Origin: Desulfurococcales archaeon
Lineage (GTDB): Archaea; Thermoproteota; Thermoprotei_A; Sulfolobales; Desulfurococcaceae
Reading direction: 5' to 3'
Assembly (NCBI GenBank): GCA_015520735.1
Contig: WAPN01000033.1
Span: forward strand, 1-64,000
Length of the DNA: 64,000 bases
Each line of letters starts with the position of its first letter. Position 1 is the first letter of the stretch. The translations under genes were made by a program, and so were the position numbers. Under the pieces are notes generated by a model. It ran no database searches. It saw only the letters and a list, made by a program, of their open reading frames with translations, and was not told where the DNA came from. This document shows, piece after piece, positions 4,504 to 33,715 of this stretch.

Positions 4504-5589
4504 GTGAGCCTAATAAGTAGTTTGACTACTAGTGGCACCGCCTTGATCATAGAATTTTCAAGGCCTATTGAGATCATATCATCGATTCCTCCAGGACACG
4601 CCATTGTGAAGAAGGCTGTGTTTAGAACAGTGAAGCCTACTTTCGATCATTCGAAATACAATAGAATTATAAGTGAGACCAGACAATTGATTAAGGACTC
4701 CAATGCCCCAGTTCTCCTTACGGCAGTTGATGTAAATAACTTTATATATAAAAAGACAGATAATCCTGAAACCCATGTTATCCTAACCATAGGATTAGGT
4801 CACCCAGCATGCATTGAGGGATCTGGACAGCCTCCAGGATCACAGAATACAATTAATATTCTAGTAGTAACCAGCACTGGCTTATCGCTTTCTGGCCTTG
4901 TAGACCTCTTCAAAACTACCGTGGAGGCTAAAACAGCCGCATGTGCTGATTTATTACTAAAGTGTAGCTCACGAAGTATAGGCACTGTCACGGACGCAGT
5001 TGTTGTAGGGAGACCACTGTCTAGTCAGTCAGGAGAGCACTTCGCCGGTATAGCTACTAGGATTGGTAGAATAGTATCCAGGATGATCTATGATGCCATA
5101 ACCAGTAAAGGTAGATCACGATCTTTGGATAAACTGCTCTACGACCTATTAGGAGTTGATAGGAAGTGGCTAGTTAACAAGGCTCTTGAAATTTACAAGG
5201 AGGCTGAGATCCCTGGGATCTCGATCGATGAAGTGGAGAGTCTTATAAAACAGTATATCGACGAATTATTTAGAGATCCAAATATATGGGCATTCATAAT
5301 CGGCGCTAGGGAAATAGACATACATGGTATCTCGAACACTTACCCCTTGATCACCAGGGAGGAATTCCTACGCGACCCACACTGGATAATAGCTGATGAT
5401 ATAATTGGTGCATCTTTATCAATGTATTTGACAGGCTTTAAAGGTTTATTTATGTTGTACTGGATCGAGAGGCTGAAGAAGACAAGGAAAATATTTCCTG
5501 AGAAGGGAGTGTTCACAGACGATATAATATCTGCATTACTAGCCTCAATACTTACTAGGGTATACGATGTTGTCGCGAAGAATGATTAG
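4504..5589 (+). CDS. cbiS: CbiS: adenosylcobinamide amidohydrolase (CbiZ) fused to alpha-ribazole phosphatase (CobZ)
   Basis: Residues 1 to about 180 match CbiZ, which cleaves the aminopropanol side chain of adenosylcobinamide to give adenosylcobyric acid. The diagnostic segment EAKTAACADLL...GTVTDAVVVG is visible near residues 140-175. Residues about 195-361 resemble the PgpA/YutG-like CobZ phosphatase, which dephosphorylates alpha-ribazole phosphate, with IIGAREIDIHGISNTYPLI and a segment starting DIIGASLSMY. The same fusion is known as CbiS from Methanopyrus. Start is the GTG at 4504 behind GGTGATG. The 3' end overlaps cobY, and cobY-cobD-cobS-cbiB follow in one apparent operon. One protein thus supplies both precursors needed by its neighbours. 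Confidence 0.85.
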   Translation: MSLISSLTTSGTALIIEFSRPIEIISSIPPGHAIVKKAVFRTVKPTFDHSKYNRIISETRQLIKDSNAPVLLTAVDVNNFIYKKTDNPETHVILTIGLGHPACIEGSGQPPGSQNTINILVVTSTGLSLSGLVDLFKTTVEAKTAACADLLLKCSSRSIGTVTDAVVVGRPLSSQSGEHFAGIATRIGRIVSRMIYDAITSKGRSRSLDKLLYDLLGVDRKWLVNKALEIYKEAEIPGISIDEVESLIKQYIDELFRDPNIWAFIIGAREIDIHGISNTYPLITREEFLRDPHWIIADDIIGASLSMYLTGFKGLFMLYWIERLKKTRKIFPEKGVFTDDIISALLASILTRVYDVVAKND

Positions 5590-6127
5590 AGTAGCAGTCA
5601 TCATGGCTGGTGGAAAAGGAAGTAGGTTCGGAGGCCCAGAGAAGCCTTTGGCAAAAATATGTGGTAGGCCAATGATCTCATGGGTTGCTTATAAGGCTGA
5701 GAAAGTATCACGCAACATTATACTGGCTGTATCGGGAAGAACAAGGGATCTCTGCCGCTTATTCACTTACGATCACCATGTAATATGCATAGAAACAAGC
5801 GGGAATGGATACGTAGAAGACCTCGCATTACTTCTCCGAATACTGCAAAAGCCGGTACTTGTTCTTCCTGCTGATACGCCGTTAATACCACTTGATATCC
5901 TCATGGATTTTGTCGGAAAAGCCTTAAATACAAATAGTGATATTGCTGAATTTACTATTGTTAAGGATGATAGTAAGAGAGAACTGATCGGTGTATCTGT
6001 TTTCTTCAAGGATGCTGGAAGGGAAGAGGAAATAACTTATCCATACTCAATAGTATTGAGCGATATAGATACCCAGGAGGAGTTATCTATTGCTCGGCAG
6101 AAATGCACGGATACACGGTGGATGTAG
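5582..6127 (+). CDS. cobY: CobY: GTP:adenosylcobinamide-phosphate guanylyltransferase
   Basis: This 181-aa protein has the nucleotidyltransferase start AVIMAGGKGSRFGGPEKPL and the aspartate-containing VLPADTPLIP strand typical of CobY, the archaeal non-orthologous replacement of bacterial CobU. It converts adenosylcobinamide phosphate to the GDP form, the substrate of CobS. The ATG at 5582 overlaps the cbiS stop by 8 bp and gives the conserved N terminus; an ATG at 5567 would add five residues. The 3' end overlaps cobD by 38 bp, implying translational coupling. Context separates it from MobA-type molybdopterin enzymes. Confidence 0.85.
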   Translation: MIRVAVIMAGGKGSRFGGPEKPLAKICGRPMISWVAYKAEKVSRNIILAVSGRTRDLCRLFTYDHHVICIETSGNGYVEDLALLLRILQKPVLVLPADTPLIPLDILMDFVGKALNTNSDIAEFTIVKDDSKRELIGVSVFFKDAGREEEITYPYSIVLSDIDTQEELSIARQKCTDTRWM

Positions 6128-7175
6128 ATATAAGGGAATTATCGACTTTAGCTCGCCCCAATCACCGCTCGAGCCGCCTCATCCATTAAAAGAGCTCCTT
6201 TTAAAATGTGTTGAGGAGAAAGTATACATGATATATCCAGATCATAGCTATACTTCTCTTAGGAAGGCGATTGCCCATTTCTACCATATGGACTATAATA
6301 AGATACTTCCTCTTAACGGCTCAGCTGAGCTCTTAAGTCTCCTAATACCTGCGTATAGGCCTTCCAGACTAATCAGTATAGAGCCTAATTTTGGAGATCA
6401 CCACTTGATGTCGAGGGCTTTGGATCTCGAGATTATAGACGTACCGTATGTGGTGAGCGGTGATGAGTACTTATTCCCGATAGATCGACTATTATCGCTC
6501 CCTAAAAGTCTCTATCACCGCGCTATAATAGTGTTTTCAAACCCGAACAATCCCAGCGGATGCTTTGCGGACTATAAGTTAATATATGAACTACTGCACT
6601 ACCTTCCAGACAGCTCGGTAGTGGTCTTGGATGAAGCATTTATTGAGTTCATAGATGATGTTCCACGCATCATAGATGATCATAAACTTATACTGCTAAG
6701 AAGCTTCACCAAAATATTCAGTACGCCAGGCCTGCGTCTTGGGTTTGCATATATTAACAATGCCAGGCTATTGGAGAAAATGGAATTGATAAGGCAGCCA
6801 TGGAATGTTAGCTCCATTGCGGACTGTGTTTTCTCGCGGTTGCTTGGAAGTGATGAATACATTTCTGAATTGAGGGCCTATATTGAACATGTTAAAAGAA
6901 TAGTTGCGAATGAAAGGATATGGCTCACAGAGAAGCTGTCATCGATAGGACTAACAGTATACCGATCCCATGCCCCGTTCATTCTAGTGAAGCATCCTAT
7001 GATAAAGCACCCGTATCTCCAGAGGCTTCTCATTGGAAAGGGGTTTTATATTAGGGATGCATCATCATTTAAGTATTTATCGAGAAATCATAGCAGAATA
7101 TCTGTTCGTCTAAGAAAAGATAATGTCAAGCTTGTTGAAGCCCTCAAAGAGATCATAGAGGGATCGCGATGTTGA
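6090..7175 (+). CDS. cobD: CobD: L-threonine-O-3-phosphate decarboxylase (PLP, fold type I)
   Basis: A 361-aa aminotransferase-like protein with FSNPNNPSG near residue 150, DEAFIEF near 185 and the PLP-lysine region RSFTKIFSTPGLRLGF near 208. The N-terminal HGGCRYKGIIDFSSPQSPL resembles CobD and separates it from HisC. CobD makes (R)-1-amino-2-propanol phosphate for the corrin side arm, used by CbiB two genes downstream. The TTG at 6090 is preceded by CCAGGAGG at good spacing; the gene overlaps the end of cobY and the start of cobS. Histidinol-phosphate aminotransferase is the alternative, made unlikely by the operon. Confidence 0.82.
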   Translation: MLGRNARIHGGCRYKGIIDFSSPQSPLEPPHPLKELLLKCVEEKVYMIYPDHSYTSLRKAIAHFYHMDYNKILPLNGSAELLSLLIPAYRPSRLISIEPNFGDHHLMSRALDLEIIDVPYVVSGDEYLFPIDRLLSLPKSLYHRAIIVFSNPNNPSGCFADYKLIYELLHYLPDSSVVVLDEAFIEFIDDVPRIIDDHKLILLRSFTKIFSTPGLRLGFAYINNARLLEKMELIRQPWNVSSIADCVFSRLLGSDEYISELRAYIEHVKRIVANERIWLTEKLSSIGLTVYRSHAPFILVKHPMIKHPYLQRLLIGKGFYIRDASSFKYLSRNHSRISVRLRKDNVKLVEALKEIIEGSRC

Positions 7176-7945
7176 AAGGACTAAGGGCTCTTATATCCTT
7201 TTTAACGAGAATACCTACCGGGATATTCGATCTTGACCTCGCATCTAAGTCCTTCTACATGGTGCCGATTATCGGAGCCATTGAAGGTGCAGTAGTTTCT
7301 GCAGTAGTTATTGTTTTGAATGCTTTTTTGGATCCCGTAATGGTGTGTGTTTTCTATGTTATTGCTCATCTAGTATTAACAGGTGGGCTGCACTTTGATG
7401 GATTTGTAGACTTCACAGAAGCTCTATGGTCAGGCCGGAGAGGAGATGAAATGCTTAAGATCATGAAGGATCCTCGGAAGGGGGTTTTCGGTGTAGTCTC
7501 TGCCATCGTTAACTTACTGATTAGTGTCGTCGGAACCTACGTGGTCATAAGTTATTATCGATCTATGTCTCTGGCCATTGTATTGTTCTACCTTGTACTA
7601 TATATTTTATCAGCTGAGAGTATGTTCATTTTATCATATATAGGGGATCCAGAGCCTTATGATGGTCTTGCCAGAAAAATCGTCGTCATGGCGTCAAAAA
7701 GAGTATGGAGAAACTTTTCATTAGTGATTGTACTGCTAATCCCATTATATTATTTCTCATATCTATTGGATCCTTTATTCATGTCAAAACAATTACTCAT
7801 CGTTGTATCAATGCTATTAGTTATACTCTATACTGGCCATGAGGCAGAAAGGAGACTTGGCTATATCAATGGAGATATACTTGGTTTCACATATGAATTG
7901 GTTAGGATAATCGGGCTAATAATTATGGGAGTCGTAGTACATTGA
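7169..7945 (+). CDS. cobS: CobS: adenosylcobinamide-GDP ribazoletransferase
   Basis: This 258-aa polytopic membrane protein joins the activated lower-ligand nucleoside to adenosylcobinamide-GDP, completing the cobamide. The N-terminal RALISFLTRIPTG and the acidic motif GGLHFDGFVDFTEALWSG (about residues 71-88) are characteristic of CobS; several hydrophobic helices follow. Length is normal. It overlaps cobD by 7 bp and cbiB by 4 bp. Confidence 0.88.
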   Translation: MLKGLRALISFLTRIPTGIFDLDLASKSFYMVPIIGAIEGAVVSAVVIVLNAFLDPVMVCVFYVIAHLVLTGGLHFDGFVDFTEALWSGRRGDEMLKIMKDPRKGVFGVVSAIVNLLISVVGTYVVISYYRSMSLAIVLFYLVLYILSAESMFILSYIGDPEPYDGLARKIVVMASKRVWRNFSLVIVLLIPLYYFSYLLDPLFMSKQLLIVVSMLLVILYTGHEAERRLGYINGDILGFTYELVRIIGLIIMGVVVH

Positions 7946-8901
7946 TTGATCTAGCATTTTTCTATCCATATAATCCGGCTTATATGATCATAGTGCTTAT
8001 AGTCGCCTTGATGCTTGACTATCTCTATCCTTTTCATAAAGGCTTACTGCTCCGGATACACCCGGTCCATACATCTTTTATACTTGCACGAATGCTTGGT
8101 AAGAAGTACTCCTCCAAATTGAGGGGAATTTTGACTTGGATCTTTGTTGTTTCAATACATATTGTATTGTACTCCCTTATTCTCTATGTTTCGTGGCGCA
8201 TATCTATTTACTTATGGATAGCTATATCAGCATATATTCTCAAATTATCTTTCTCGCTGAGACTATTACTCGATATAATAGGTAATATACAGAGCTGCCT
8301 TCTCAAGGGGGATCTTGACGGTGCAAGGAGATGGACGCAGATCATTGTTAGACGTGACGTCTATGAGCTTGACAAACCCCATGTTATATCTGCTGCTATC
8401 GAAAGTCTTGGTGAAAGTATAGTTGACGGCTTTATATCTCCTCTTTTTTGGTACATGTTCCTCGGCCCAATAGGCGCATTGATGCAAAGACTGGCTAATA
8501 CCATGGACAGTGCCTTAGGATATAAGACGCCCGAATACATAGACGTTGGCTGGTTTTCCGCTAAGATAGATACCATTATAAATTATGTACCTGCCAGGAT
8601 CACTGCCCTCCTATATTTAGTTATATGTTTAGCCTATAGGAATTGTAATTTGCACAGGGCATATATGATCTGGAGAAAATACCATGGTGCAACTGAGAGC
8701 TTTAATGCTGGCCATCCAATCTCAGCTCTTGCTGGTCTGATTGGAGCGAGGCTCGAGAAGCCCGGCCATTATAATATAGGCGTAGAGCACCCCCTTCCAG
8801 GATCTAGGCACTTATACTTGGCAAGGATTTATACGATTGGCGTTACCATGTCATGGCTAGTCATAGTAAACTCAGGCATAATATTGATCAGCACCTTGTG
8901 A
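7942..8901 (+). CDS. cbiB: CbiB: adenosylcobinamide-phosphate synthase
   Basis: A 319-aa membrane protein of the CbiB family, which attaches aminopropanol phosphate to adenosylcobyric acid. Motifs include LDYLYPFHKG near residue 25, the GDLDGARRWTQIIVRRD stretch and AAIESLGESIVDGFISPLFW with NTMDSALGYKTPEY. A C-terminal SFNAGHPISALAGLIGARLEKPG is also typical. The TTG at 7942 overlaps the cobS stop by 4 bp. With CbiS hydrolysing cobinamide to cobyric acid, CbiB closes the salvage loop. It is the last gene of the operon. Confidence 0.88.
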   Translation: MIDLAFFYPYNPAYMIIVLIVALMLDYLYPFHKGLLLRIHPVHTSFILARMLGKKYSSKLRGILTWIFVVSIHIVLYSLILYVSWRISIYLWIAISAYILKLSFSLRLLLDIIGNIQSCLLKGDLDGARRWTQIIVRRDVYELDKPHVISAAIESLGESIVDGFISPLFWYMFLGPIGALMQRLANTMDSALGYKTPEYIDVGWFSAKIDTIINYVPARITALLYLVICLAYRNCNLHRAYMIWRKYHGATESFNAGHPISALAGLIGARLEKPGHYNIGVEHPLPGSRHLYLARIYTIGVTMSWLVIVNSGIILISTL

Positions 8902-22456: not shown

Positions 22457-23239
22457 CTAAATGATGGGCACGAGGATATATTTATTATTATATCTAATAA
22501 TGTTGAAATTCACTCCGTAGACCTGGCTCAACTTATCTGGAATGAGGGCTTCGCGGGGGCTACCGTATATCTCGACTCTGCCTTTATTTAGCAATAATAT
22601 CTTGTCGCAATAAAGGGAAGCCATTAGTGGATCATGAAGGGTCACTATCGCACCAAGTATTCTTTTTTCTTCTACTAGTTTTCTGATGAGGTTCATTGTT
22701 TTCACAGCATTAGATATGTCTAGATGAGATACTGGTTCATCCATTAACAGTATCTTTGCTTCTTGGACGAGGGTTCTAGCGATCAGTACAAGCTGGAACT
22801 GGCCCCCACTGATCTCGGTTATGGTTTTATCGGCAAGGCTGCCTAGGCCTAAATCGTCAAGCACGCGGTATGCTTTGTCATAGTCTTTTCTCGAGGGTAC
22901 GGAGAACATCCCGTGGTGTGGGGCTCTGCCCATGATGACGTAGTCTATTACCTTGTACGGGAACACGATGTGGTGTTCTTGGGGAACATAGCCGATGATC
23001 TTTGCAAGACTCTTCGGGGATACGGACGCTACATTCCTTCCTAGTATCCTAACCATGCCTGTACCTTTAAGTATTCCTAGAAGTGTCTTTAGCAGGGTGG
23101 TCTTGCCGGCCCCATTAGGGCCAAGGACGCCAAGTATCTCTCCCTTGTGTAGCTCGAAGGATACGTTATCTAGGACTTTCTCGGCTCCATTATATGAGAA
23201 GTTTAGGCCCTTTACCTCGATAACGGGATTTACCTCCAT
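22457..23239 (-). CDS. ABC importer ATPase, Fe3+-siderophore/corrinoid type
   Basis: 260 aa with Walker A GPNGAGKTT, Q-loop YVPQEHH, signature ISGGQFQL, Walker B ILLMDEP and a switch histidine in VTLHDP. This is the FepC/BtuD group that energises FecCD permeases. The ATG at 23239 overlaps the permease stop by 10 bp. Last gene of the minus-strand binding protein-permease-ATPase operon. Substrate could be corrinoid, iron chelate or another tetrapyrrole; the divergent chelatase genes favour the tetrapyrrole reading. Confidence 0.88.
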   Translation of the reverse strand: MEVNPVIEVKGLNFSYNGAEKVLDNVSFELHKGEILGVLGPNGAGKTTLLKTLLGILKGTGMVRILGRNVASVSPKSLAKIIGYVPQEHHIVFPYKVIDYVIMGRAPHHGMFSVPSRKDYDKAYRVLDDLGLGSLADKTITEISGGQFQLVLIARTLVQEAKILLMDEPVSHLDISNAVKTMNLIRKLVEEKRILGAIVTLHDPLMASLYCDKILLLNKGRVEIYGSPREALIPDKLSQVYGVNFNIIRYNNKYILVPII

Positions 23240-24231
23240 ACTTTTCCAGCCCTCCTTAGCAGTATTATAAGTATAGGAGCACCCATGATCGTCGTCAATA
23301 TCCCTATAGGGATAACCTGGCTCGTCATAGCTCTCGAGAGATCATCTGCTAGGACAAGGTATGTCCCTCCCAGGAAGAAGCTATAGATGATAACCTGCCT
23401 TGAATCACTGCCCACCATGAGCCGTACAATATGTGGTACCAATAAGCCGACCCAACCAATAATCCCTGCATAGGAGACGGCCGAGGCGGTAATTAATGCA
23501 GCTACACTGGCAAAGAATAGTCTTTCGAAGACCGGGTTAGCTCCGAGCGATCTCGCCTCATCGTCGCCGAGCGATAATATGTTGAGCCTCCACCTAGCCA
23601 TTACAAGGACTATGCTACATGGGATGATGATAAGCGCCATCCTAATTATATCCGGCCATTGGCCCGCTTGACCAACATCTCCCATGAGCCAGAACACAAT
23701 GGCTGCCACTTTATCCGGGTTTGGCGCGAAATACTCCGCCAGGGAGAGTCCTGCAGAGAACAGCGCGTTCACAACTATTCCCGAGAGAACGAGTGATATT
23801 ATTGATCCTCTACCCCACCCCCATGCAATCGCCACCACGATCAGATACGCAACTATAGCAGTAATCATCGCAACTAGCTCTACAGGAATGAATAGGGGCA
23901 GAAAAGCTAGGGCAACGGCTGCTCCAAGCGCCGCACCACTAGTTATGCCGAGAACATATGGGCTGACAAGAGGATTTCTCATCATGCATTGAAGGCTTGC
24001 ACCAGAAATGCTTAAGGCTATACCGATAAGCGCCGCTGCTAGCACCCGTGGTAATCTGTAGTAGAGAACTATTCTAGAAGCCGCAGAGCCTAGTTGCGGA
24101 TTGCATACAAGAGCATTGAATAGTATCTGGAGAACCTTGCCTGGGGGGATAGGATACGGGCCTATGAAAAGCGATAATATTATGGCTGCAGGTAGAGAAA
24201 AAACGATCAGTATCTTATATATGTTTTCCAT
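23230..24231 (-). CDS. ABC importer permease, FecCD/BtuC type
   Basis: 333 aa, about ten hydrophobic segments, with the family features LPRVLAAALIGIALSISGA and GLLVPHIVRLMVG plus the C-terminal EIPIGILTT-like SQVIPIGILTTIMGAPI. It forms the membrane channel for the tandem binding protein encoded 4 bp upstream and the ATPase downstream. ATG start at 24231. Confidence 0.9.
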   Translation of the reverse strand: MENIYKILIVFSLPAAIILSLFIGPYPIPPGKVLQILFNALVCNPQLGSAASRIVLYYRLPRVLAAALIGIALSISGASLQCMMRNPLVSPYVLGITSGAALGAAVALAFLPLFIPVELVAMITAIVAYLIVVAIAWGWGRGSIISLVLSGIVVNALFSAGLSLAEYFAPNPDKVAAIVFWLMGDVGQAGQWPDIIRMALIIIPCSIVLVMARWRLNILSLGDDEARSLGANPVFERLFFASVAALITASAVSYAGIIGWVGLLVPHIVRLMVGSDSRQVIIYSFFLGGTYLVLADDLSRAMTSQVIPIGILTTIMGAPILIILLRRAGKVWR

Positions 24232-24235
24232 GGCG

Positions 24236-26332
24236 TCATCCCGTCATAGCGGTTACGCTAATGTAAGGGACACCATACCATTCTTGATAATAATTGTTCG
24301 CTATCTCTGTAAAGTTAGTATTCGACCATAGGCTTGGGTAGAGCTTCATTGAGAGCCACAATATGAATATCGATGCACTAACACCCCAGTGCTCGTAGTA
24401 TGGCTCTTTGTATACCCTGCCATTCTTTACCGCGTCAATACTCTTTAATGCCGGATTGTCTAGGATGTCTTTGGGCCCGTATCTCGCGTAATACCATATT
24501 ATTATGACCTGGGGATTCCAGCCGATGATCTTCTCTAGATCTACTGATACATAGTCTTTATTAGGGTAGTCCTTAGCAGCAACGTTTATCCCGCCTGCCA
24601 GAACTATGAAATCATTAACAGTTCCATGGCCTCCCTGTACCATTGTTTCTTTGCTCCATAGATAAAGCACTCTAACCCTCTTATCACTAGGTATATCTGA
24701 AACTCTCGACTGCACCAGTGTAATGATCTTGTCCATATCGTTTACTAATTGATAAGCCCTGCTTCTTTCATCGAATACTACTCCGAAGAGCCATACAAGT
24801 CTCTTAATGTCATTGAAGCTATAACATTGGACCTTGATAACCGGTATTCCCTGGGCCTCTATTTCTTTCACCACTTTTTCATTGTATGGCCATGTTATCA
24901 CCACTTGTGGCTTGAGGGCCAGTAAGTCTTCTATGTTGACTGAGAAGCTGCTTCCAGGTGATGGTATCTTGGTGATGTTCGGGTATGCTTTCAGCATTAT
25001 GGGATTATACTTAGCGTATTTGGAGATACCGACTATTTTGTCCATGGCGTGCAGGGCGAGAACCAAGGTGTATGATATAAAGTCGACGGCTCTAGTGATC
25101 TTTGGTGAGAGCTCCACTACTTCTCCTGTCATATCCACTATTTTCATCCATCTAATGCTATAGGAGGCGAATGCTTGTGCAGGTATGAACTCGTGGTAGA
25201 AATGAGTGAACAAGTATTCTGCATCGTCTCTCCAGTTAATATCCTTATATATGTCTGGGTATAGTAAGGAGGCGATGTACTCTATACCAATTATACTTCT
25301 TGGGCCCCAGTCGAGAACTCCCCCTATTTCAGACCAGCATGGAACAATGTATATATGGCTGCTTTTATAGGCCTTAAGGGCTTGCCATTTAGGATCACTC
25401 TTTATCTTCTCAATTACGCTATTTATCGAGGATACCGATGATGTGACCAGTATGGCGTCAGGATTCCATGATGCCAGCGTCTCAAAGTCTATCTTAGGCC
25501 ATTTCTTACTTGGGAAATTCTTGAGCGCCAGGTTAACAGCACCGGCTTCTTCTACTGCGTGCCCCCAGCTAGTATTGGAGTAGAGGAGTATGCTTCCTTT
25601 TAGTAGCGAGTATCCGTCGATCATCACTGCTGATATCTTGTCCTTAATGCTACTGGCGAGGCTCTTAATTTTTTGATAGTGGGATAACAGGTATTCTGAT
25701 AGCTCGTTTGCCTGGCTAGTATGCCCAGTTATTTCGCCCAGTATCTTGATCGCTTTTAGCTCGTCGTTGAAGCCGTGCATGAATAAGCCAACAACCTTTA
25801 TACCCATCTGTTCTATCTTAGAAGCTATTTCCCCGGCTTTACCGTAGCCTATATCCATGATTACAACATCAGGCTTTAGAGCAGCGATTTCTTCTATGTT
25901 GACCCCGGTGAAAACACTCCCAACGGATATCTTATTCCTAATATCCTCCGGAAGGTATTGGTCGTACTTGACATACTTTCCTATCCCGACAATAAGGTTC
26001 CCAGCCCCTATTGCGAGGAGTGTTTCAGCCCAGTATGATTCTAGAACTACTATTCTTTCGACGGGCTTATTGAAAACGATCTTTTTGCCTCTGAAATCCG
26101 TGACTATTATCGGTTTTACTTTTGATGTTCTGGTAGTAGTGGTTGTGTGTGGGGCTGTTGTGGTTGTTGTGGATGTGCTTGTCTGTCTCACAGTATTTAT
26201 TGATGTTTGTGGAGCTGTTTTTGTGGGCTTATTTATGTACGTGTAGTATAGTGTTATACTGCTTCCTACGCCGACTATTATTATTAGTATTATTAGCGCG
26301 GCGGCGGCCTTCGTGATCCCCTTATATTCCAA
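24236..26332 (-). CDS. Lipid- or membrane-anchored binding protein with two BtuF/FepB-type domains
   Basis: 698 aa: a hydrophobic N-terminal helix (about 8-30), a Thr-rich linker (about 38-70), then two complete Fe/B12 periplasmic-binding domains, about 75-365 and 375-690. The first starts IVTDFRGKKIVFNKPVERIV, the second VDMTGEVVELSPKITRAVDF, and each has its own IVGIGKYVKY / IVGISKYAKY element. Members of this family normally have one domain. TTG at 26332 is preceded by GAGGTG; a TATA-like TATTTATTTC lies further upstream in the region shared with the divergent chelatase gene. Ligand probably a corrinoid or related chelate, by context only. Confidence 0.85.
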   Translation of the reverse strand: MEYKGITKAAAALIILIIIVGVGSSITLYYTYINKPTKTAPQTSINTVRQTSTSTTTTTAPHTTTTTRTSKVKPIIVTDFRGKKIVFNKPVERIVVLESYWAETLLAIGAGNLIVGIGKYVKYDQYLPEDIRNKISVGSVFTGVNIEEIAALKPDVVIMDIGYGKAGEIASKIEQMGIKVVGLFMHGFNDELKAIKILGEITGHTSQANELSEYLLSHYQKIKSLASSIKDKISAVMIDGYSLLKGSILLYSNTSWGHAVEEAGAVNLALKNFPSKKWPKIDFETLASWNPDAILVTSSVSSINSVIEKIKSDPKWQALKAYKSSHIYIVPCWSEIGGVLDWGPRSIIGIEYIASLLYPDIYKDINWRDDAEYLFTHFYHEFIPAQAFASYSIRWMKIVDMTGEVVELSPKITRAVDFISYTLVLALHAMDKIVGISKYAKYNPIMLKAYPNITKIPSPGSSFSVNIEDLLALKPQVVITWPYNEKVVKEIEAQGIPVIKVQCYSFNDIKRLVWLFGVVFDERSRAYQLVNDMDKIITLVQSRVSDIPSDKRVRVLYLWSKETMVQGGHGTVNDFIVLAGGINVAAKDYPNKDYVSVDLEKIIGWNPQVIIIWYYARYGPKDILDNPALKSIDAVKNGRVYKEPYYEHWGVSASIFILWLSMKLYPSLWSNTNFTEIANNYYQEWYGVPYISVTAMTG

Positions 26333-26437
26333 GGTAGTGCACCTCGCAAACTTAGGGGGTACATTCCTTTAGAAATAAATACTTTGGCTCGGGGATATAA
26401 AATTGGTGCAGTACCTCCCGATAAATGGTGCACTAAA
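26333..26437. promoter_or_regulatory. Divergent promoter region, binding protein / CobN
   Basis: AGTATTTATTTCTAAAG (26367-26385, minus sense) precedes the binding-protein gene. On the plus strand GGGATATAAAATTGG (26393-26404) is a TATA box, and GGTG at 26427-26430 precedes the TTG at 26438 by 7 nt. The two operons therefore share one short control region and are likely coexpressed. Confidence 0.5.
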
Positions 26438-29400
26438 TTGACGAGGATATCCTTCATAATAGGCTATAGTGCCTCAATGGCGGCAACGCTCACCGAAACA
26501 GCGCGAAAGCTATCCAGGAGATTTGGCTTCGAGTACAAGATAATAACACCCTACAGGCTGGGAGGAGGAGAAAAAGACTTCATAAAAGGATCGGATTTCA
26601 TACTCATTTATTCCTCGAGGCTTCCAGACGACTATGAGGAAGTTCTGGAAAAGATCAAGGAAGAAAAGATGATTGCAGGGCTAGAGGACACACATTCTTA
26701 TCTTACTAATATTGGAGCTAAGCACTATGCTTGCCTCATCAAGTACCTAAAGATGGGTGGGCGTGAAAACCTAGAATCGCTGATATATTACATACTCAAA
26801 TTATTAGGATATAATGTAGATGTCCCTCAGCCCAAGCCAGTTCCATGGCATGGAGTATATCATCCAGCCTTAGGCGTGTACGGGACGGCCCAAGAATATC
26901 TTCGAGCCTATAAGTTCTCTAATAAGCCCCTAGTAGGTATACTATTCTATAGGAATGACTGGCTCTATGGAAGAACACATCTCGTGGACGAGCTCATCAA
27001 AACAATAGAGGCTGAGGGCCTAGGTGTCCTTCCTGTTTTCACGTACGGTTTCAAAGACAAATACCTGGGAACGCCATCCTCAGAGGACACTATAAGGAAG
27101 TTTTTCATACAGGACGACAGACCGATAATAGACGTACTAATCAATCTCACGAGTTTCTTCATACTAGATCATGGGAGAAGCAGGGAGTGGAGCACTAAAG
27201 GCTATGGGCTTGCCGGTGGACTGTGTCTACTAAAGAAAATGAACATACCAGTGCTCGAATACCTGACTATGTATGATAGAAGCCCCGAGCAGTGGAGGGA
27301 TGATCCAAAGGGATGCGGGTACATGACACTAGTATATAAGATAAGCATGTCTGAAGTCGACGGAGCGATAGAACCAATACCAGTTGCCGCGACAAGGCCA
27401 AACGAGTACGGAGGCAAAGACATAGTTCCTCTACGAGAACAAATAAGGATTATTGCTAGGAGGATCAAGAAATGGGTTAGACTAAGACATAAACCACCGA
27501 GTGAGAGAAGGATAGCGGTCATACTGATAAACCCGCCCTGCAAAGGCCTAGAAGCAAATGTTGCGGTGGGCTTCGGCCTGGACGTCCCCGAGAGCGTTGT
27601 CGAGTTCCTTAAGAAGCTAAGGGAGGCAGGATACAATGTCGGCGATGAGATCCCTGAAACGGGAGAAGAACTCATAAAGATGATCATGGAGAAAAAAGCC
27701 GTAAGCGAGTTCCGATGGACGTCTGTCGAGGACATAGTGAGGAACGGCGGAGCCCTAGACATCCTTCCTCTCGATAAGTATCTCGAATACTATCGAGAAC
27801 TGCCCGAGAAGGCCAGGAAGGAGATAGAATCCTCATGGGGCGACCCCGTTAGAGTGGTTAAGGAGAAGCCACCGGGACTGGCAGGCATGATCCATGACGG
27901 CGGCTTCGTGATCCCCGGCCTCAGGTTCGGCAATGTAGTTATTATACCGCAGCCTAAAAGAGGATGTGCGGGCCCTAGATGTGATGGGACTGTGTGTAAG
28001 ATACTTCACGATCCAAATGTCCCGCCGCCTCATCAATGGCTGGCCGTCTACTGGTGGATAACAAGGGTATTTGACGCGGATATCATGATTCATTTCGGGA
28101 CACATGGTTATCTCGAGTTCCTGCCAGGCAAGAATGCTTGTCTCTCGAGTTCTTGCTGGCCGCTGATAAGCATCGATGATACGCCCCACCTATATGTCTA
28201 CGTGGTATCAAACCCTATGGAGGGCTCGATCGCTAAGCGCCGAGGGATGGCGGCACTAGTAGATCATCTCTACCCGCCCATGGCTGCTGCCGATGCAATG
28301 AGTGAGCTCGACGACCTTGTCAACCAGTATCTTAAAGCCAAGAATATGGGGGATGAGACGCGTAAGAAAGAGTTACTGGAGATGATAAAGGAACTGGCGA
28401 TTAAACATGATATAAAGCTACGAGAAGATATGGGTGCAGACGAGATCATAGAGGCCGTGCACAAGAAGCTCCATATGATAGGGGAAACAGACATAAATCT
28501 CGGACTACACGTCCTGGGCAGGCCGCCAACCCCCGGATCAAAACTAGCCAAATACGTGGTAACAATCGATACAAGACTCCCTCCAGAACAATCTCTTGTG
28601 AAAAATATTTCTCACATCATAGGCGTAAAGTACGAGGAACTCGACGAGTACCCCTTGGAAATTCATGAAAAACTAGGGATACCATATAGAGAGTTGAAAA
28701 AGAAGATCAGGGAGGCCGCCGAAAAAATACTAGAGAAAACCCTAGAGTCAAAGGAACCAGCAGATCCTCTTAAGACACTTGAGGAAATTATTATGGAGTA
28801 TTTTCCGGGAACAAGGATTAGGCCCTCAAATGACCGTATATATGCCCTTAAAAACGCTCTAAGAATAGCTGAGCTGCTAACGGATACGGACAAAGAGGTA
28901 GTCTCCCTTCTAAATGGAGTAGCCGGAGGATATGTGGAACCGGGCCCTTCTGGTAACCTCTATAGAGGTAAGACCAGCGTACTCCCTACTGGGAGGAACT
29001 TCTACCTCCTAGATCCACGGACACTCCCAACGAGAGCAGCCTGGATGGTAGGCGTCAAATCAGCTGATCTTCTTATTAAGTACTATGTTGAGAAGCATGG
29101 GAGAATGCCTGAGACCATAGGACAAGTACTATGGAGTATTGACGCCTTTAAGGCTGATGGAGAGCAGCTGGCCCAGATACTATACCTGCTAGGCGTCAAG
29201 CCTGTATGGGATGACGGAGGAAATGTTGTGGGCCTGCAACCCATACCGCTGGAGAAGCTGGGTAGACCGAGAATAGATGTGCTGGTAAGAATAAGTGGTA
29301 TAGTTAGAGATCTCCTACCAAACTATATAGAGCTAATCGATAAGGCTGTCTCCATCGTTATCAGTCTTGATGAGCCCCTCGAAATGAACTATCCAAGGAA

Positions 29401-30298
29401 ACACTATCTCGAAGACATAGAGAAGCTGGTTAGCCTCGGGCATAGTAAGGAAGAAGCCGAAGAGATCGCGAAGCACCGTGTTTATGGTTCGCCTCCGGGC
29501 AGTTATGGAGCGGGAGTAAATCTGGCCGTGGAAGCATCAGCATGGAAGGACAGGGGTGATCTTGCCAAGATATGGGTGCAATGGAGCGGGTACGCCTATA
29601 CACGAAGCAAATACGGCGTTGAGTCCCACGAACACCTCGTCCTCAGCCTTCGACGCGTAGACATGGTTAACAGGAACCATGTAAGCGATGAACACGACAT
29701 ACTCGGTTGCTGTTGCTACTTCTCATACCATGGAGGATTCTATAACGCTGCTAAGAATCTGTCGAGCCGCGAGGTAGAGGCTGTTACTGTAGACACCCGT
29801 AACGTGTACAGATTAAGGATTAGGGGGATGGACGAGGAAATAGAGCGTGTGCTTCGGGCCAAACTACTCAATGATCAATGGATAGCGGAGATGAAGAAGC
29901 ACGGCTACCGTGGAGCCAGCGAGTTCCAGCGTAAAATACTCCATTTCTATGGATGGGCGTCGGTATCTGGGCTAGCCGAGGACTGGATGTTCGAGAAAAT
30001 CGCCGAGAAATATGTTCTGGATGATGATATGAGGGAATGGTTCCTAGAGCATAACAAGTGGGCTCTAGAGGAGATCGCTAGGAGGCTTATCGAGGCGGGA
30101 CTTAGAGGGGTCTGGAAAGCTTCTCCCGAGCTTCTAGATAGATTAAGACAAGTCTATTCCGAGATAGAGGGTTATCTCGAGGAGGAACTCGGCGCTGGAG
30201 AAGTGCAGGGAGGCGCTATAGATGTGATAAGCTATGATGAAGTAGAGGAATGGAGGAAGAAAATGGAGAAAATCGATAAAATATTGGAAGAGATATAG
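26438..30298 (+). CDS. CobN/BchH-like large subunit of a metal chelatase
   Basis: About 1286 aa, the length of CobN-type subunits that bind the tetrapyrrole and insert metal with ATP. Features seen are the IHFGTHGYLEFLPGKNACLSS region, VSNPMEGSIAKRRG, PTGRNFYLLDPRTLPTRAAW and YAYTRSKYG near the C terminus. Start TTG 26438 is supported by a TATA box and GGTG; the open frame extends to a TTG at 26384. A ChlI-ChlD fusion follows 40 bp downstream. Aerobic CobN inserts cobalt into hydrogenobyrinate diamide, a pathway not evident here; nickel, magnesium or metal exchange on scavenged tetrapyrrole are all open. I keep the family name only. Confidence 0.87.
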   Translation: MTRISFIIGYSASMAATLTETARKLSRRFGFEYKIITPYRLGGGEKDFIKGSDFILIYSSRLPDDYEEVLEKIKEEKMIAGLEDTHSYLTNIGAKHYACLIKYLKMGGRENLESLIYYILKLLGYNVDVPQPKPVPWHGVYHPALGVYGTAQEYLRAYKFSNKPLVGILFYRNDWLYGRTHLVDELIKTIEAEGLGVLPVFTYGFKDKYLGTPSSEDTIRKFFIQDDRPIIDVLINLTSFFILDHGRSREWSTKGYGLAGGLCLLKKMNIPVLEYLTMYDRSPEQWRDDPKGCGYMTLVYKISMSEVDGAIEPIPVAATRPNEYGGKDIVPLREQIRIIARRIKKWVRLRHKPPSERRIAVILINPPCKGLEANVAVGFGLDVPESVVEFLKKLREAGYNVGDEIPETGEELIKMIMEKKAVSEFRWTSVEDIVRNGGALDILPLDKYLEYYRELPEKARKEIESSWGDPVRVVKEKPPGLAGMIHDGGFVIPGLRFGNVVIIPQPKRGCAGPRCDGTVCKILHDPNVPPPHQWLAVYWWITRVFDADIMIHFGTHGYLEFLPGKNACLSSSCWPLISIDDTPHLYVYVVSNPMEGSIAKRRGMAALVDHLYPPMAAADAMSELDDLVNQYLKAKNMGDETRKKELLEMIKELAIKHDIKLREDMGADEIIEAVHKKLHMIGETDINLGLHVLGRPPTPGSKLAKYVVTIDTRLPPEQSLVKNISHIIGVKYEELDEYPLEIHEKLGIPYRELKKKIREAAEKILEKTLESKEPADPLKTLEEIIMEYFPGTRIRPSNDRIYALKNALRIAELLTDTDKEVVSLLNGVAGGYVEPGPSGNLYRGKTSVLPTGRNFYLLDPRTLPTRAAWMVGVKSADLLIKYYVEKHGRMPETIGQVLWSIDAFKADGEQLAQILYLLGVKPVWDDGGNVVGLQPIPLEKLGRPRIDVLVRISGIVRDLLPNYIELIDKAVSIVISLDEPLEMNYPRKHYLEDIEKLVSLGHSKEEAEEIAKHRVYGSPPGSYGAGVNLAVEASAWKDRGDLAKIWVQWSGYAYTRSKYGVESHEHLVLSLRRVDMVNRNHVSDEHDILGCCCYFSYHGGFYNAAKNLSSREVEAVTVDTRNVYRLRIRGMDEEIERVLRAKLLNDQWIAEMKKHGYRGASEFQRKILHFYGWASVSGLAEDWMFEKIAEKYVLDDDMREWFLEHNKWALEEIARRLIEAGLRGVWKASPELLDRLRQVYSEIEGYLEEELGAGEVQGGAIDVISYDEVEEWRKKMEKIDKILEEI

Positions 30299-30337
30299 CT
30301 TGATTGGTACACAGCCTAATGATAATAGGTGCAGATA

Positions 30338-32242
30338 ATGGACGATACAACTAGAATAGCTACCTTCCCGTTTACGGCGATCGTAGGTCTAGATGATGCT
30401 AAGGCAGCATTGCTCGCCGTTGCCGTAAACCCCCTCATAGGGGGCGTACTTCTTAGAGGAGACAAGGGGACAGGTAAGACGACGCTGGTGAGATCATTAG
30501 CGAACCTACTCCCAGAGATCAAGGTCGTTGCGGACTGCCCGTTCAACTGCGACCCGGAAAACCCTAGCATGATGTGCGATAATTGTTACAGGCGGTGGAT
30601 CCGGGGAGAAAAACTATCTGTAACCACACGAAAGATGCGCGTAGTCGATCTCCCCTTGAGCGTCACCCCGGACAGATTGATAGGGACGATAGATGTAGAG
30701 AAGTTCCTCAGAGAAGGAGTAAAAGCAGTGAGTCCTGGACTTTTGGCCGAGGCAAACAGGAACATACTCTACATAGATGAAGTAAATCTGCTCGACGACT
30801 ACATAGCTGATCTAATACTTGATGCCGCGGCATACGGCTGGAACATTATTGAGAGGGAACATGTTTCCTTCAAACATCCTTCAAGATTCATACTAGTTGG
30901 GAGTATGAACCCGGAGGAAGGTGAGCTAAGGCCTCAGCTACTGGACAGGTTCGGTCTAGTGGTAGATGTCAATGCTCCAATGGATCCGGAATTAAGAGCA
31001 GAGATAGTTAGGCGTGTCGAGGAATACAGTATTGACCCTATATCGTTCTACAAGAAATATGAGCCCCTCGAAAACGATCTCCGTGAAAAAATAGCGCAAG
31101 CAAGGAAAATACTGTGTGAAGTAGTCATAGACGATGAACTACTCAGAGCAGTTGCTGAGAAGATAGCAGAGATGAAGATAAGGACCTGTAGAGCGGAGAT
31201 AACGGTTGTTAGGACGGCTAAGGCATTAGCAGCGCTTGATGGTCGGAGAAAAGTTAGTGAGGACGATATAGAGAAAGCCATGAGACTAGCCCTACCCCAT
31301 AGGATAAGGCTGAATCCCTTCGAAGAAGCGGGTAAAAGAGAACACCCTTTCGAGCAAAAATCCTCTGGGCGGACTAAGCCACACAGTCATACCCATCATT
31401 ACTTCAGGGATGATAGCCTGGCTCAGCAAGAAGGACGGGGAGATAGTCCGGGTAGTGGGAAAGAGCTGAGGCTAGGCTCACTAAGACCTGGTACCTCACT
31501 ACCCATTCTTCCCATAAGGAGGGCTAGTAGCAGGAAATGGATAGATTATGGAAGGAGAAGCAGGAAAACGTTTAGGACTAGAATAGGGGGTTTCGTCGGA
31601 GCTCCTATAGGGTATATCTATCCTGCTCCGAGGCCGAGAGACATAGACCTCGTAGGCACTCTTATCGCATCAACGATCATAGGTGATCGTGGTAATTGCT
31701 TAGCTGAGAAAATAAGGCGTAGTCCTGTCCCTGTCCTGACTATGATCTGTCTGGATGCTAGCGGGAGCATGAATTACCGGAAAAGGATAATGATCGCGAA
31801 GGCTGTTGCTCATATGATCACTAGGAGAAGCTATACGCTAAAAACATGGTTGTCGCTCCTTGCCTTTAGAGGCGAAGGCGTTAAGGAATATATTCCGCCT
31901 ACTAGGAACTACAGAAAGATAATCGAGTTGATCGAGAAGATTCCATCAGGTAGAAAAACACCATTGTCCGCATGCCTATACCGAGTACTTGAGGAAGTAT
32001 CTATCTTTCGTAAAAAATACAGGGACTCCGAGGCAGAGGTTTTCCTCATCACCGATGGCAAAGCCAACGTCTCAATTACCGAAAAGGATATTAAGAAAGA
32101 ACTAGCGAGCTTAGCCAGGGAGATCAGGAGAAGGAGAATAAGACTTTACATCATTGATCCGAGAGGAAGAACCGTAGATCCCGGCATTGACTATATAAAA
32201 TTAATAGCTCACCATTCGGGTGGAAAGGTGATCAGGATCTAG
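30338..32242 (+). CDS. ChlI-ChlD fusion: AAA+ and VWA subunits of a metal chelatase
   Basis: 634 aa. Residues about 1-340 are an AAA+ ATPase with Walker A RGDKGTGKTT, four cysteines in the CPFNCD/CDNCYR insert typical of this group and Walker B ILYIDEVNLLDD. A low-complexity His/Ser/Gly linker (about 345-395) follows. The C-terminal VWA domain (about 460-634) has the MIDAS CLDASGSMNY. It is the motor for the CobN-like protein upstream. AGGTG before the ATG at 30338 supports that start over a GTG at 30329. Short linked promoter DNA only; cotranscribed with CobN. Confidence 0.88.
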   Translation: MDDTTRIATFPFTAIVGLDDAKAALLAVAVNPLIGGVLLRGDKGTGKTTLVRSLANLLPEIKVVADCPFNCDPENPSMMCDNCYRRWIRGEKLSVTTRKMRVVDLPLSVTPDRLIGTIDVEKFLREGVKAVSPGLLAEANRNILYIDEVNLLDDYIADLILDAAAYGWNIIEREHVSFKHPSRFILVGSMNPEEGELRPQLLDRFGLVVDVNAPMDPELRAEIVRRVEEYSIDPISFYKKYEPLENDLREKIAQARKILCEVVIDDELLRAVAEKIAEMKIRTCRAEITVVRTAKALAALDGRRKVSEDDIEKAMRLALPHRIRLNPFEEAGKREHPFEQKSSGRTKPHSHTHHYFRDDSLAQQEGRGDSPGSGKELRLGSLRPGTSLPILPIRRASSRKWIDYGRRSRKTFRTRIGGFVGAPIGYIYPAPRPRDIDLVGTLIASTIIGDRGNCLAEKIRRSPVPVLTMICLDASGSMNYRKRIMIAKAVAHMITRRSYTLKTWLSLLAFRGEGVKEYIPPTRNYRKIIELIEKIPSGRKTPLSACLYRVLEEVSIFRKKYRDSEAEVFLITDGKANVSITEKDIKKELASLAREIRRRRIRLYIIDPRGRTVDPGIDYIKLIAHHSGGKVIRI

Positions 32243-32421: not shown

Positions 32422-32455
32422 AACTGGTCTGAGAATATATCAGGTGTATTTAGAA

Positions 32456-33127
32456 TTGCGAGCCGCGATTTTGCTCAATATTTCATCCAATTATAGTCTT
32501 AGGAAAATTATATTCAGTAAGATAAACGGGGTCTCGGTGATCGAAAAAGTTTATGAAAATGTGAAGAACATTTTTGGTGAAGCGAATATTGTTGGTGGAG
32601 GTGAACTGTACGATGAGGTAATAGAATTTCTTGGAATAGAGGGTATTAGAGACGAGTATGAAGAGCCGTATTTCTTATCTAATCTTGCCATAGCCATCCG
32701 CAAGCTGGGTGATGTGTTTGTCTTCTCACCGAATATGCCATGTATAAACCGTAGATTCGTTGAAGTGCTTATACGGATATGGAGGTCTGGAGGTTATCTT
32801 ATCGTAGCTCCTGGTTGGCAAGACAATAGTGTTGTATACGGCCAAGCAATATATTCTAAACTGCTCATCAAAGATATTGAACAACTAATTGAAGCAAAGA
32901 AAGATATTTTCGATCTCTACGATCTCCACTCGGACAAAACATATGTGCTTTACCTAGACAGATTACCTATAGCTTATACGTCTAGCACAGTAGCTATAGG
33001 GAGAGACGAGGATCTAGTATTCTTTAAGGAATTACTCAGCACTAATGACTCCATAGAATATGCATGCAAGGAAATGTTCAAAGAATTATATCTTAGAAGA
33101 AGCCGTTTGACCTTTCCGCCCTCTTAG
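32456..33127 (+). CDS. Degenerate MobA/CobY-like nucleotidyltransferase fold protein
   Basis: 223 aa from TTG at 32456, preceded by AGGTG; a GTG at 32444 is also possible. The N-terminal RAAILLN strand, GVSVIEKVYENVKNIF and DVFVFSPNMPCINRRFVEVL follow the order of MobA/CobY proteins (compare VLPADTPLIP in CobY in this window). The glycine-rich NTP loop and the catalytic aspartate are missing, replaced by NISSNYSLRKI and SPNMP. Catalysis is therefore doubtful; it might bind a nucleotide or have a new role. The 3' end overlaps the convergent gene by 42 bp. Confidence 0.55.
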   Translation: MRAAILLNISSNYSLRKIIFSKINGVSVIEKVYENVKNIFGEANIVGGGELYDEVIEFLGIEGIRDEYEEPYFLSNLAIAIRKLGDVFVFSPNMPCINRRFVEVLIRIWRSGGYLIVAPGWQDNSVVYGQAIYSKLLIKDIEQLIEAKKDIFDLYDLHSDKTYVLYLDRLPIAYTSSTVAIGRDEDLVFFKELLSTNDSIEYACKEMFKELYLRRSRLTFPPS

Positions 33128-33715
33128 AATTTTGTCAATCGTTCTGCGAAACTTTTCATCATTTTTCATTAGCCAAGAATAATTTTTCTTAATCATCTCC
33201 GTGGGTGCCCAAACTATTTCCGGTTTTTCCCCAGAATAATCTAAGACTATGATAATCAGGCCCGAACCCAAGACGATTGGTGATGTATCTGAACCATGAG
33301 GGAAAACAACATTTTTAAGAATATGTAGCGCTCCGTTAAGCTCCCATTCCTCAGGTATTTTCTCCCCCCTTATATTTTCTTCAAGTCTTTTCGGTGCTCT
33401 GAGAACTGGTATAAGGAGTGCTACCCGGAATCTTCTGAAAGTTCTCCTAGCCAGTTCAAGTCTCATTGTCTCAGTCCACTCAAGAGCTTCTCGAAGCAGC
33501 TTTATAGCCTTCTCAGGTTCTACCTTGTTTTTAATCACTAGCTTCCTATCTACAGCTGGCGGGCGCGATCTGTTTTTCTCCGGCTTGAATATGAGCAGGG
33601 CTCTGCGGCAAGGGAAATCCAGTTTGTCATCTATGAAGAACGCATCTAACAAAAACTCCTTGTTTTCTACCCTGATCCTGTACGCTGGTATGATAATTAG
33701 TGCTTTAGGCAACAT
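33086..33715 (-). CDS. Unknown protein, member of a two-copy family in this window
   Basis: 209 aa. Clearly paralogous to the protein at 44828-45418: both start with IPAYR/IPCYK, then LLDAFFID/LLDAYFMN, RRALLIF/RRTLMIY, NGALHIL/NGALYII and finish with IKKNYSWLMKNDEKFRR versus IHKNYMYLYRIDEVFRR. No known family is recognised and no catalytic motif stands out. The ATG at 33715 is preceded by GGGTGA. Both copies stand alone on the minus strand, and each overlaps the 3' end of a convergent gene. Confidence 0.75.
   Translation of the reverse strand: MLPKALIIIPAYRIRVENKEFLLDAFFIDDKLDFPCRRALLIFKPEKNRSRPPAVDRKLVIKNKVEPEKAIKLLREALEWTETMRLELARRTFRRFRVALLIPVLRAPKRLEENIRGEKIPEEWELNGALHILKNVVFPHGSDTSPIVLGSGLIIIVLDYSGEKPEIVWAPTEMIKKNYSWLMKNDEKFRRTIDKILRGRKGQTASSKI

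Follow-up and report, generated by a model that had tools for sequence, protein, structure and literature searches.

A cysteine-rich CobN-ChlID chelatase linked to a BtuFCD-type importer in an archaeon that makes no tetrapyrrole ring

Why would an archaeon that salvages cobinamide, and makes no corrin ring, keep an ATP-driven CobN-type chelatase? The question is raised by a 64,000-nucleotide stretch of Desulfurococcales archaeon DNA (assembly GCA_015520735.1, contig WAPN01000033.1, positions 1 to 64,000 of the forward strand; hereafter the window), which is contig C33 of an archaeal genome of 1.53 Mb in 40 contigs, 99.8% complete. In the window, genes for a CobN-type large subunit and a fused ChlI-ChlD motor (ChlID) diverge from an importer operon (Table 1). 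Our results reveal that this CobN belongs to a cysteine-rich subfamily of apparently single origin that accompanies importers in several Thermoproteota lineages, and they suggest that it may act on a tetrapyrrole brought in from outside.

The importer operon encodes PF01497, PF01032 and PF00005 proteins, the make-up of a class III (BtuFCD-type) ATP-binding cassette (ABC) importer. It spans 26332-22457 on the minus strand and so reaches ~1.8 kb past position 24236, where the stretch under study had been taken to begin. Domain comparison and orthologue alignment revealed that the binding protein has an N-terminal transmembrane segment, a Thr-rich linker and two PF01497 domains with a mutual identity of ~27%. 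For cobN, the open reading frame list gives a TTG at 26384, from which our residue numbers are counted; the probable start is the TTG at 26438, the start position in relatives. If cobN starts at this second TTG, the gap between importer and cobN is exactly 105 bp. The motor retains its motifs in translation (Walker A GDKGTGKTT, Walker B ILYIDE, and DASGS at the VWA metal-ion-dependent adhesion site). The whole arrangement is conserved across independent assemblies, which rules out contamination or chance juxtaposition.

The proteins belong to known superfamilies but score below the cut-offs of specific functions. CobN matches PF02514 with 1175 bits (gathering cut-off 24.5) over profile positions 2-1088 of 1090, and in the PDB it matches CobN (7c6o, E 5e-162) and the heme dechelatase HmuS (9d26, E 9e-116). 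It falls below the equivalog cut-offs for cobaltochelatase (NF004646, 1262.6 versus 1468; TIGR02257, 795.1 versus 822.05) and for the magnesium chelatase subunit ChlH/BchH (TIGR02025, 776.1 versus 829). ChlI-ChlD, over its full length, scores 572.5 against the cut-off of 779.45 of TIGR02442, the profile for a putative cobaltochelatase motor. The importer proteins are likewise below the B12-specific equivalog cut-offs (BtuF, 76 versus 234; BtuC, 206 versus 461; BtuD, 126 versus 281).

Whole-genome searches gave no match to HemB (PF00490), CbiX (PF01903) or CbiC (PF02570), while control genomes gave the expected matches. The single match to the tetrapyrrole methylases (PF00590) has the sequence of DphB, a diphthamide enzyme. 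Because uroporphyrinogen and its methylase are missing, the cell can make neither corrin nor F430, and the genome lacks the corrin pathway to hydrogenobyrinic acid diamide expected beside a cobaltochelatase. A hidden ring-synthesis pathway is thus excluded as the source of substrate. A preliminary description of the window had proposed a CobN-like subunit and ChlI-ChlD motor divergent from a BtuFCD-type importer over 105 bp, together with cobinamide salvage in the absence of corrin-ring synthesis; profile matches, the start used by relatives and the genome-wide searches bear out both points. It had also named a complete corrin or F430 pathway elsewhere in the genome, using this chelatase, as grounds for rejecting its reading; our genome-wide searches found no such pathway.

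Cobamide is nonetheless needed, since contig C22 encodes together a corrinoid protein, a methyltransferase and a RACo-like activator. Next to dphB on contig C5 (~66.6-69.6 kb; L119:4638-7609, G000:C5) lies another complete BtuFCD-type importer, which the preliminary description overlooked and which may be the usual one for corrinoids. The window's own importer, described there as of the corrinoid/siderophore type, is therefore not necessarily the corrinoid importer. Among carriers of the chelatase genes, HemB is missing in 15 of the 25 tested and CbiC was found in 0 of 11 tested within the order; thus, many must obtain their substrate from outside. A general tie between CobN and HemB loss in the order was not supported, as about half of all its genomes lack HemB.

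To characterize the large subunit, we aligned it and its relatives with reference CobN, BchH, CobN-like and other archaeal sequences; outside Thermoproteota, the comparison covered plasmid-borne references. A CCC box, aligned to the DSD/SDD of the DSDD stretch of CobN, is present in 24 sequences (two of them reading CCS or CCG), and all 20 of these with an available N-terminal half also have a Cx4Cx4C loop, which carries a five-residue insertion relative to ChlH and CobN. Neither motif was complete in any of 18 other CobN/ChlH proteins compared. Sulfolobaceae-like proteins (family f11) retain a single cysteine at the place of the CCC box, which reads DDSC. In a maximum-likelihood tree from which the motif columns had been left out, the 24 lie on one side of a single branch with Shimodaira-Hasegawa-like approximate likelihood ratio test (SH-aLRT) support of 82, and 23 of them with support of 100. 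These groupings argue that at least 24 Thermoproteota sequences form a subfamily of single origin, found in several families and classes and defined by seven diagnostic cysteines. The label CobN-like in the preliminary description was right as to homology but missed that the protein departs from the ordinary type.

CobN is one chain in the window's genus; in nearly all other members it is encoded by two genes (~800 + ~510 aa, in either order). The split falls at about residue 820 (L048:6948-10855, L049, L043, L050, L041, L095-L109), and the gene order is reversed in G155 and G312. In a same-family genome, what remains of CobN is short and contains a stop codon (L053; G101:C95, 11693-11947), which looks like gene loss. 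We found no description of the subfamily, its two-gene form or its operator in the literature searched, which mostly did not cover subscription journals.

We placed the motifs relative to the active site of HmuS by bridging the alignment through a Runella CobN-like protein. HmuS His-538 corresponds to H574, His-1209 to C1111, F502 to C538 and H506 to H542. In HmuS, His-538 is essential for heme demetallation and His-1209 faces it across the bound cation, while F502 and H506 of the gating loop are predicted to lie above the exposed edge of the macrocycle (PMC12583661). Both cysteine motifs are therefore predicted to lie at the active cleft. H574 and the cleft motifs are invariant. The profile match begins only at HmuS residue 263, leaving the head domain unaligned. 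We rejected a plain HmuS orthologue, since only one of the two active-site histidines is kept, His-1209 being replaced by cysteine, and chlID lies directly 3′ of cobN; the locus also has no hmu-type outer-membrane receptor genes.

The divergent control region contains operator-like tandem boxes on both sides (Table 1). The pattern GGTGCA-N16/17-GGTGCA (22-23 bp apart) occurs once per genome in G000 (the genome of the window), G107 and G130, always at the cobN promoter; the reversed pattern gave 0 matches and window shuffles a mean of 0.00. One-off variants occupy the corresponding place in G028 and G056. The importer-side box is conserved in L002, L003/L051 and L004, and G130 has GGTACACC/GGTGTACC at the matching position. 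We detected no B12 riboswitch or other Rfam element in the window, and no sigma-70 promoters or terminators, which would be unexpected in archaea anyway. Linkage and shared boxes suggest that importer and chelatase are co-regulated. In G007 the tandem is present at two sites, the chelatase-importer promoter and upstream of a second CobN lacking the cysteine motifs. Tandem GGTGCAC-type boxes precede such non-cysteine cobN genes in G007 (L041:16955) and G056 (L047:7198), and one regulator may control both CobN types.

Linkage to importers extends beyond this genus. BtuFCD-type importers adjoin the module in the window's genus and in G130, G088, G431, G024, G034, G169 and G176, while G007, G028, G155, G312 and G357 have an unrelated energy-coupling factor (ECF)-type importer with a CbiQ-like T component, a double ECF ATPase and a beta-propeller protein. 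About 10 loci, but not that of the window, add a membrane protein of 300-338 aa with weak-to-moderate matches to the Gate domain, which is also present twice in FeoB. This poorly annotated family, a possible metal permease, is encoded 3′ of chlID in many loci (L043:13359-14375, L049:4248-5240, L098:3886-4851, L103:13095-14078, L104:3795-4763, L107:5253-6182, L108:252-1229). Two proteins of alignment A4 (G371, G367) were discounted as Gate proteins, being tRNA synthetases. In family f14 (L111, L114), operons that encode a non-cysteine CobN also hold BtuFCD-type genes and chlID, together with genes for a CbiZ-like protein and one more ABC ATPase; these loci are a second import-linked CobN type.

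The reading that we favour, with a confidence slightly short of even, is that the module is a chelatase coupled to import and driven by ATP, which takes the metal out of a scavenged tetrapyrrole or exchanges it. A metal-bearing macrocycle, corrinoid or porphyrin-type, that the cell cannot make would enter through the tandem binding protein and the BtuCD-type permease and ATPase. CobN would hold the macrocycle in its central cleft while the ChlI-ChlD motor spends ATP to remove or exchange the central metal. The Cx4Cx4C of the gating loop and the CCC on the opposite face may bind a metal ion or an Fe-S cluster beside the macrocycle; these extra cysteines would stand in for the CobN aspartates and for the second histidine in the HmuS active site, and could take up the departing metal or donate electrons for reductive demetallation. 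Importer and chelatase would be turned on together by a dedicated regulator at the tandem GGTGCAC boxes. Demetallation by a CobN homologue has a precedent in HmuS, which takes iron from heme (PMC12583661). The proposal in the preliminary description that an imported tetrapyrrole has its metal inserted or exchanged is still the best class of explanation, given the missing ring synthesis and the tie to an importer; substrate, metal and direction stand in it as suggestions. More tentatively, and on balance improbably, the two-part CobN, cysteine-lined and possibly carrying Fe-S, may define with ChlID a new class of ATP-driven tetrapyrrole demetallases with its own regulon. In archaea making no tetrapyrroles, these enzymes would import-dependently and reductively strip or swap the metal of corrinoid, heme or F430 taken up from outside.

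Several points weigh against demetallation. To our knowledge, ATP-driven class I chelatases act in insertion, not removal. HmuS functions without a ChlID motor, whereas the window CobN has one. The activity of the cysteine-rich CobN is a prediction, and the meeting of its cysteines in the cleft is deduced solely through sequence alignment to HmuS. HemB is present in 10 of the 25 carriers, and five have a CbiC match. The binding protein is under every curated cut-off, and its ligand is not assignable from these scores.

The main rival, which we consider rather unlikely, is late cobalt insertion: the importer would bring in metal-free or wrongly metallated corrinoids, CobN-ChlID would insert cobalt, and CbiS, CobY, CobS and CbiB would finish the cobamide. 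Such a role has been guessed for haloarchaeal CobN-ChlID (PMC8305020). It agrees with the cobinamide salvage genes in the same window, with the cobamide need evident from the corrinoid methyltransferase set and its RACo-like activator, and with the f14 lineages, where CobN shares an operon with BtuFCD-type and CbiZ-like genes. Its force is lessened by the second importer on contig C5, by the sub-threshold equivalog scores of CobN and by the CCC that replaces the acidic DSDDY-type box of cobalt-inserting CobN; moreover, metal-free corrinoids are rare in nature.

If the imported chelate were instead a non-tetrapyrrole metallophore for nickel, cobalt or another soft metal, CobN-ChlID could strip the metal through its cysteines, which are soft ligands. 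We regard this, the other serious rival, as unlikely. It agrees with the closeness of the binding protein's second domain to class III proteins for nickel, iron or molybdate complexes and with the FeoB-Gate-like membrane proteins linked in ~10 loci. Against it, sequence cannot assign ligands to class III binding proteins, the HFGTHG cleft motif is retained and all characterised CobN/ChlH/HmuS proteins act on tetrapyrroles (PMC12583661). Methanothermobacter CobN1 is induced by nickel limitation, reaching a high level only then (PMC12350162), which by analogy would fit a metallophore and the demetallation that we favour alike. Very improbable, in our view, is that chelatase chemistry has been lost and the subunits serve the importer as energiser, chaperone or sensor: this would explain why the genes and their promoter are so closely tied to importers of two unrelated kinds, but not why H574 and the cleft motifs are invariant and the motor intact.

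Comparison with known systems sets the module apart from each. It shares with the CobNST cobaltochelatase (PF02514, TIGR02257, NF004646) full-length homology, the HxGTHG motif and an AAA+/VWA motor partner, but differs in its lower scores, in CCC for DSDD, in the extra Cx4Cx4C loop, in the two genes of most relatives and in a host without ring synthesis. With the HmuS/BtuS heme dechelatase of Bacteroidota it has in common a homologous fold, the link to import, a host unable to make the ring and the catalytic histidine; HmuS, however, is membrane-bound, lies in an hmu operon without ChlID and has His-1209 where the window CobN has cysteine, while the window module has both motor and BtuFCD importer. 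BtuS was proposed as a CobN-like salvage protein by Rodionov 2003, as cited in PMC6460266. Magnesium chelatase (ChlH/ChlI/ChlD) resembles the module in its ChlID-type motor and large-subunit homology, but the host has no chlorophyll pathway, the ChlH score is below cut-off and BchH lacks the cysteine motifs. Haloarchaea and methanogens have the same CobN-ChlID gene pair; in the two haloarchaeal sequences that the comparison covered, cobN adjoins cbi genes and the protein has neither cysteine motif.

The function of the many CobN-ChlID pairs of archaea is described in print as an open question (PMC12583661, PMC8305020): the HmuS paper calls the role of archaeal homologues unclear (PMC12583661), while a salvage role was proposed earlier for the haloarchaeal pair (PMC8305020). 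The subfamily, its import linkage and the single-locus operator make the question experimentally direct. Demetallation, if true, would mean an ATP-driven chelatase run for salvage, an archaeal counterpart of anaerobic heme dechelation.

Table 1. Features of the chelatase-importer locus and its context (window positions)
Feature	Position	Strand	Remarks
Cobinamide salvage cluster: CbiS/CbiZ, CobY-like, CobD, CobS, CbiB	4504..8901	+	Context, outside the module
BtuD/HmuV-like ABC ATPase	22457..23239	-	PF00005; top NCBIfam matches, below cut-offs, are to corrinoid and heme ABC ATPases
BtuC/FecCD-type permease	23230..24231	-	PF01032, 281 bits
Tandem class III substrate-binding protein, membrane-anchored	24236..26332	-	PF01497, two stretches
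Divergent control region, 105 bp	26333..26437	.	Conserved among four genus relatives
Weaker tandem box, importer side	26336..26365	-	AGTGCACC (26336) and GGTACATT (26358), 22 bp apart
TATA-like box (TATAAAA) for cobN	near 26397		Within the 105-bp region
Tandem box	26405..26434	+	GGTGCAGT (26405) and GGTGCACT (26427), 22 bp apart; upstream of cobN, operator-like
CobN-type chelatase large subunit, cysteine-rich subfamily	26384..30298	+	PF02514, 1175 bits
C386 in NPPC	27539..27541	+	Invariant in all subfamily rows with N-terminal half, absent elsewhere
Cx4Cx4C loop (C528, C533, C538)	27965..27997	+	Aligned to HmuS gating loop with F502
HFGTHG motif	28091..28108	+	H574 aligned to HmuS catalytic His-538
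CCC box (C1109-C1111)	29708..29716	+	Aligned to DSD/SDD of CobN; C1111 aligned to HmuS His-1209
ChlI-ChlD fused AAA+/VWA motor	30329..32242	+	AAA lid and VWA domains; TIGR02442, 572 bits

Other observations concern neighbouring genes and single loci. In the window's genus only, chlID is followed by genes for a MobA-like nucleotidyltransferase (32444-33127) and a 209-aa protein of unknown family (33086-33715). Contig C3 of G431 carries the entire locus twice in opposite orientation (L096, L097), through either inverted duplication of a large segment or an error of assembly. On a Runella plasmid (L059:512-10090), a CobN-like operon contains genes for a TonB receptor, an annotated urease accessory protein, ExbB and DUF2149 proteins; it adjoins hydrogenase maturation genes and is a possible nickel acquisition system.

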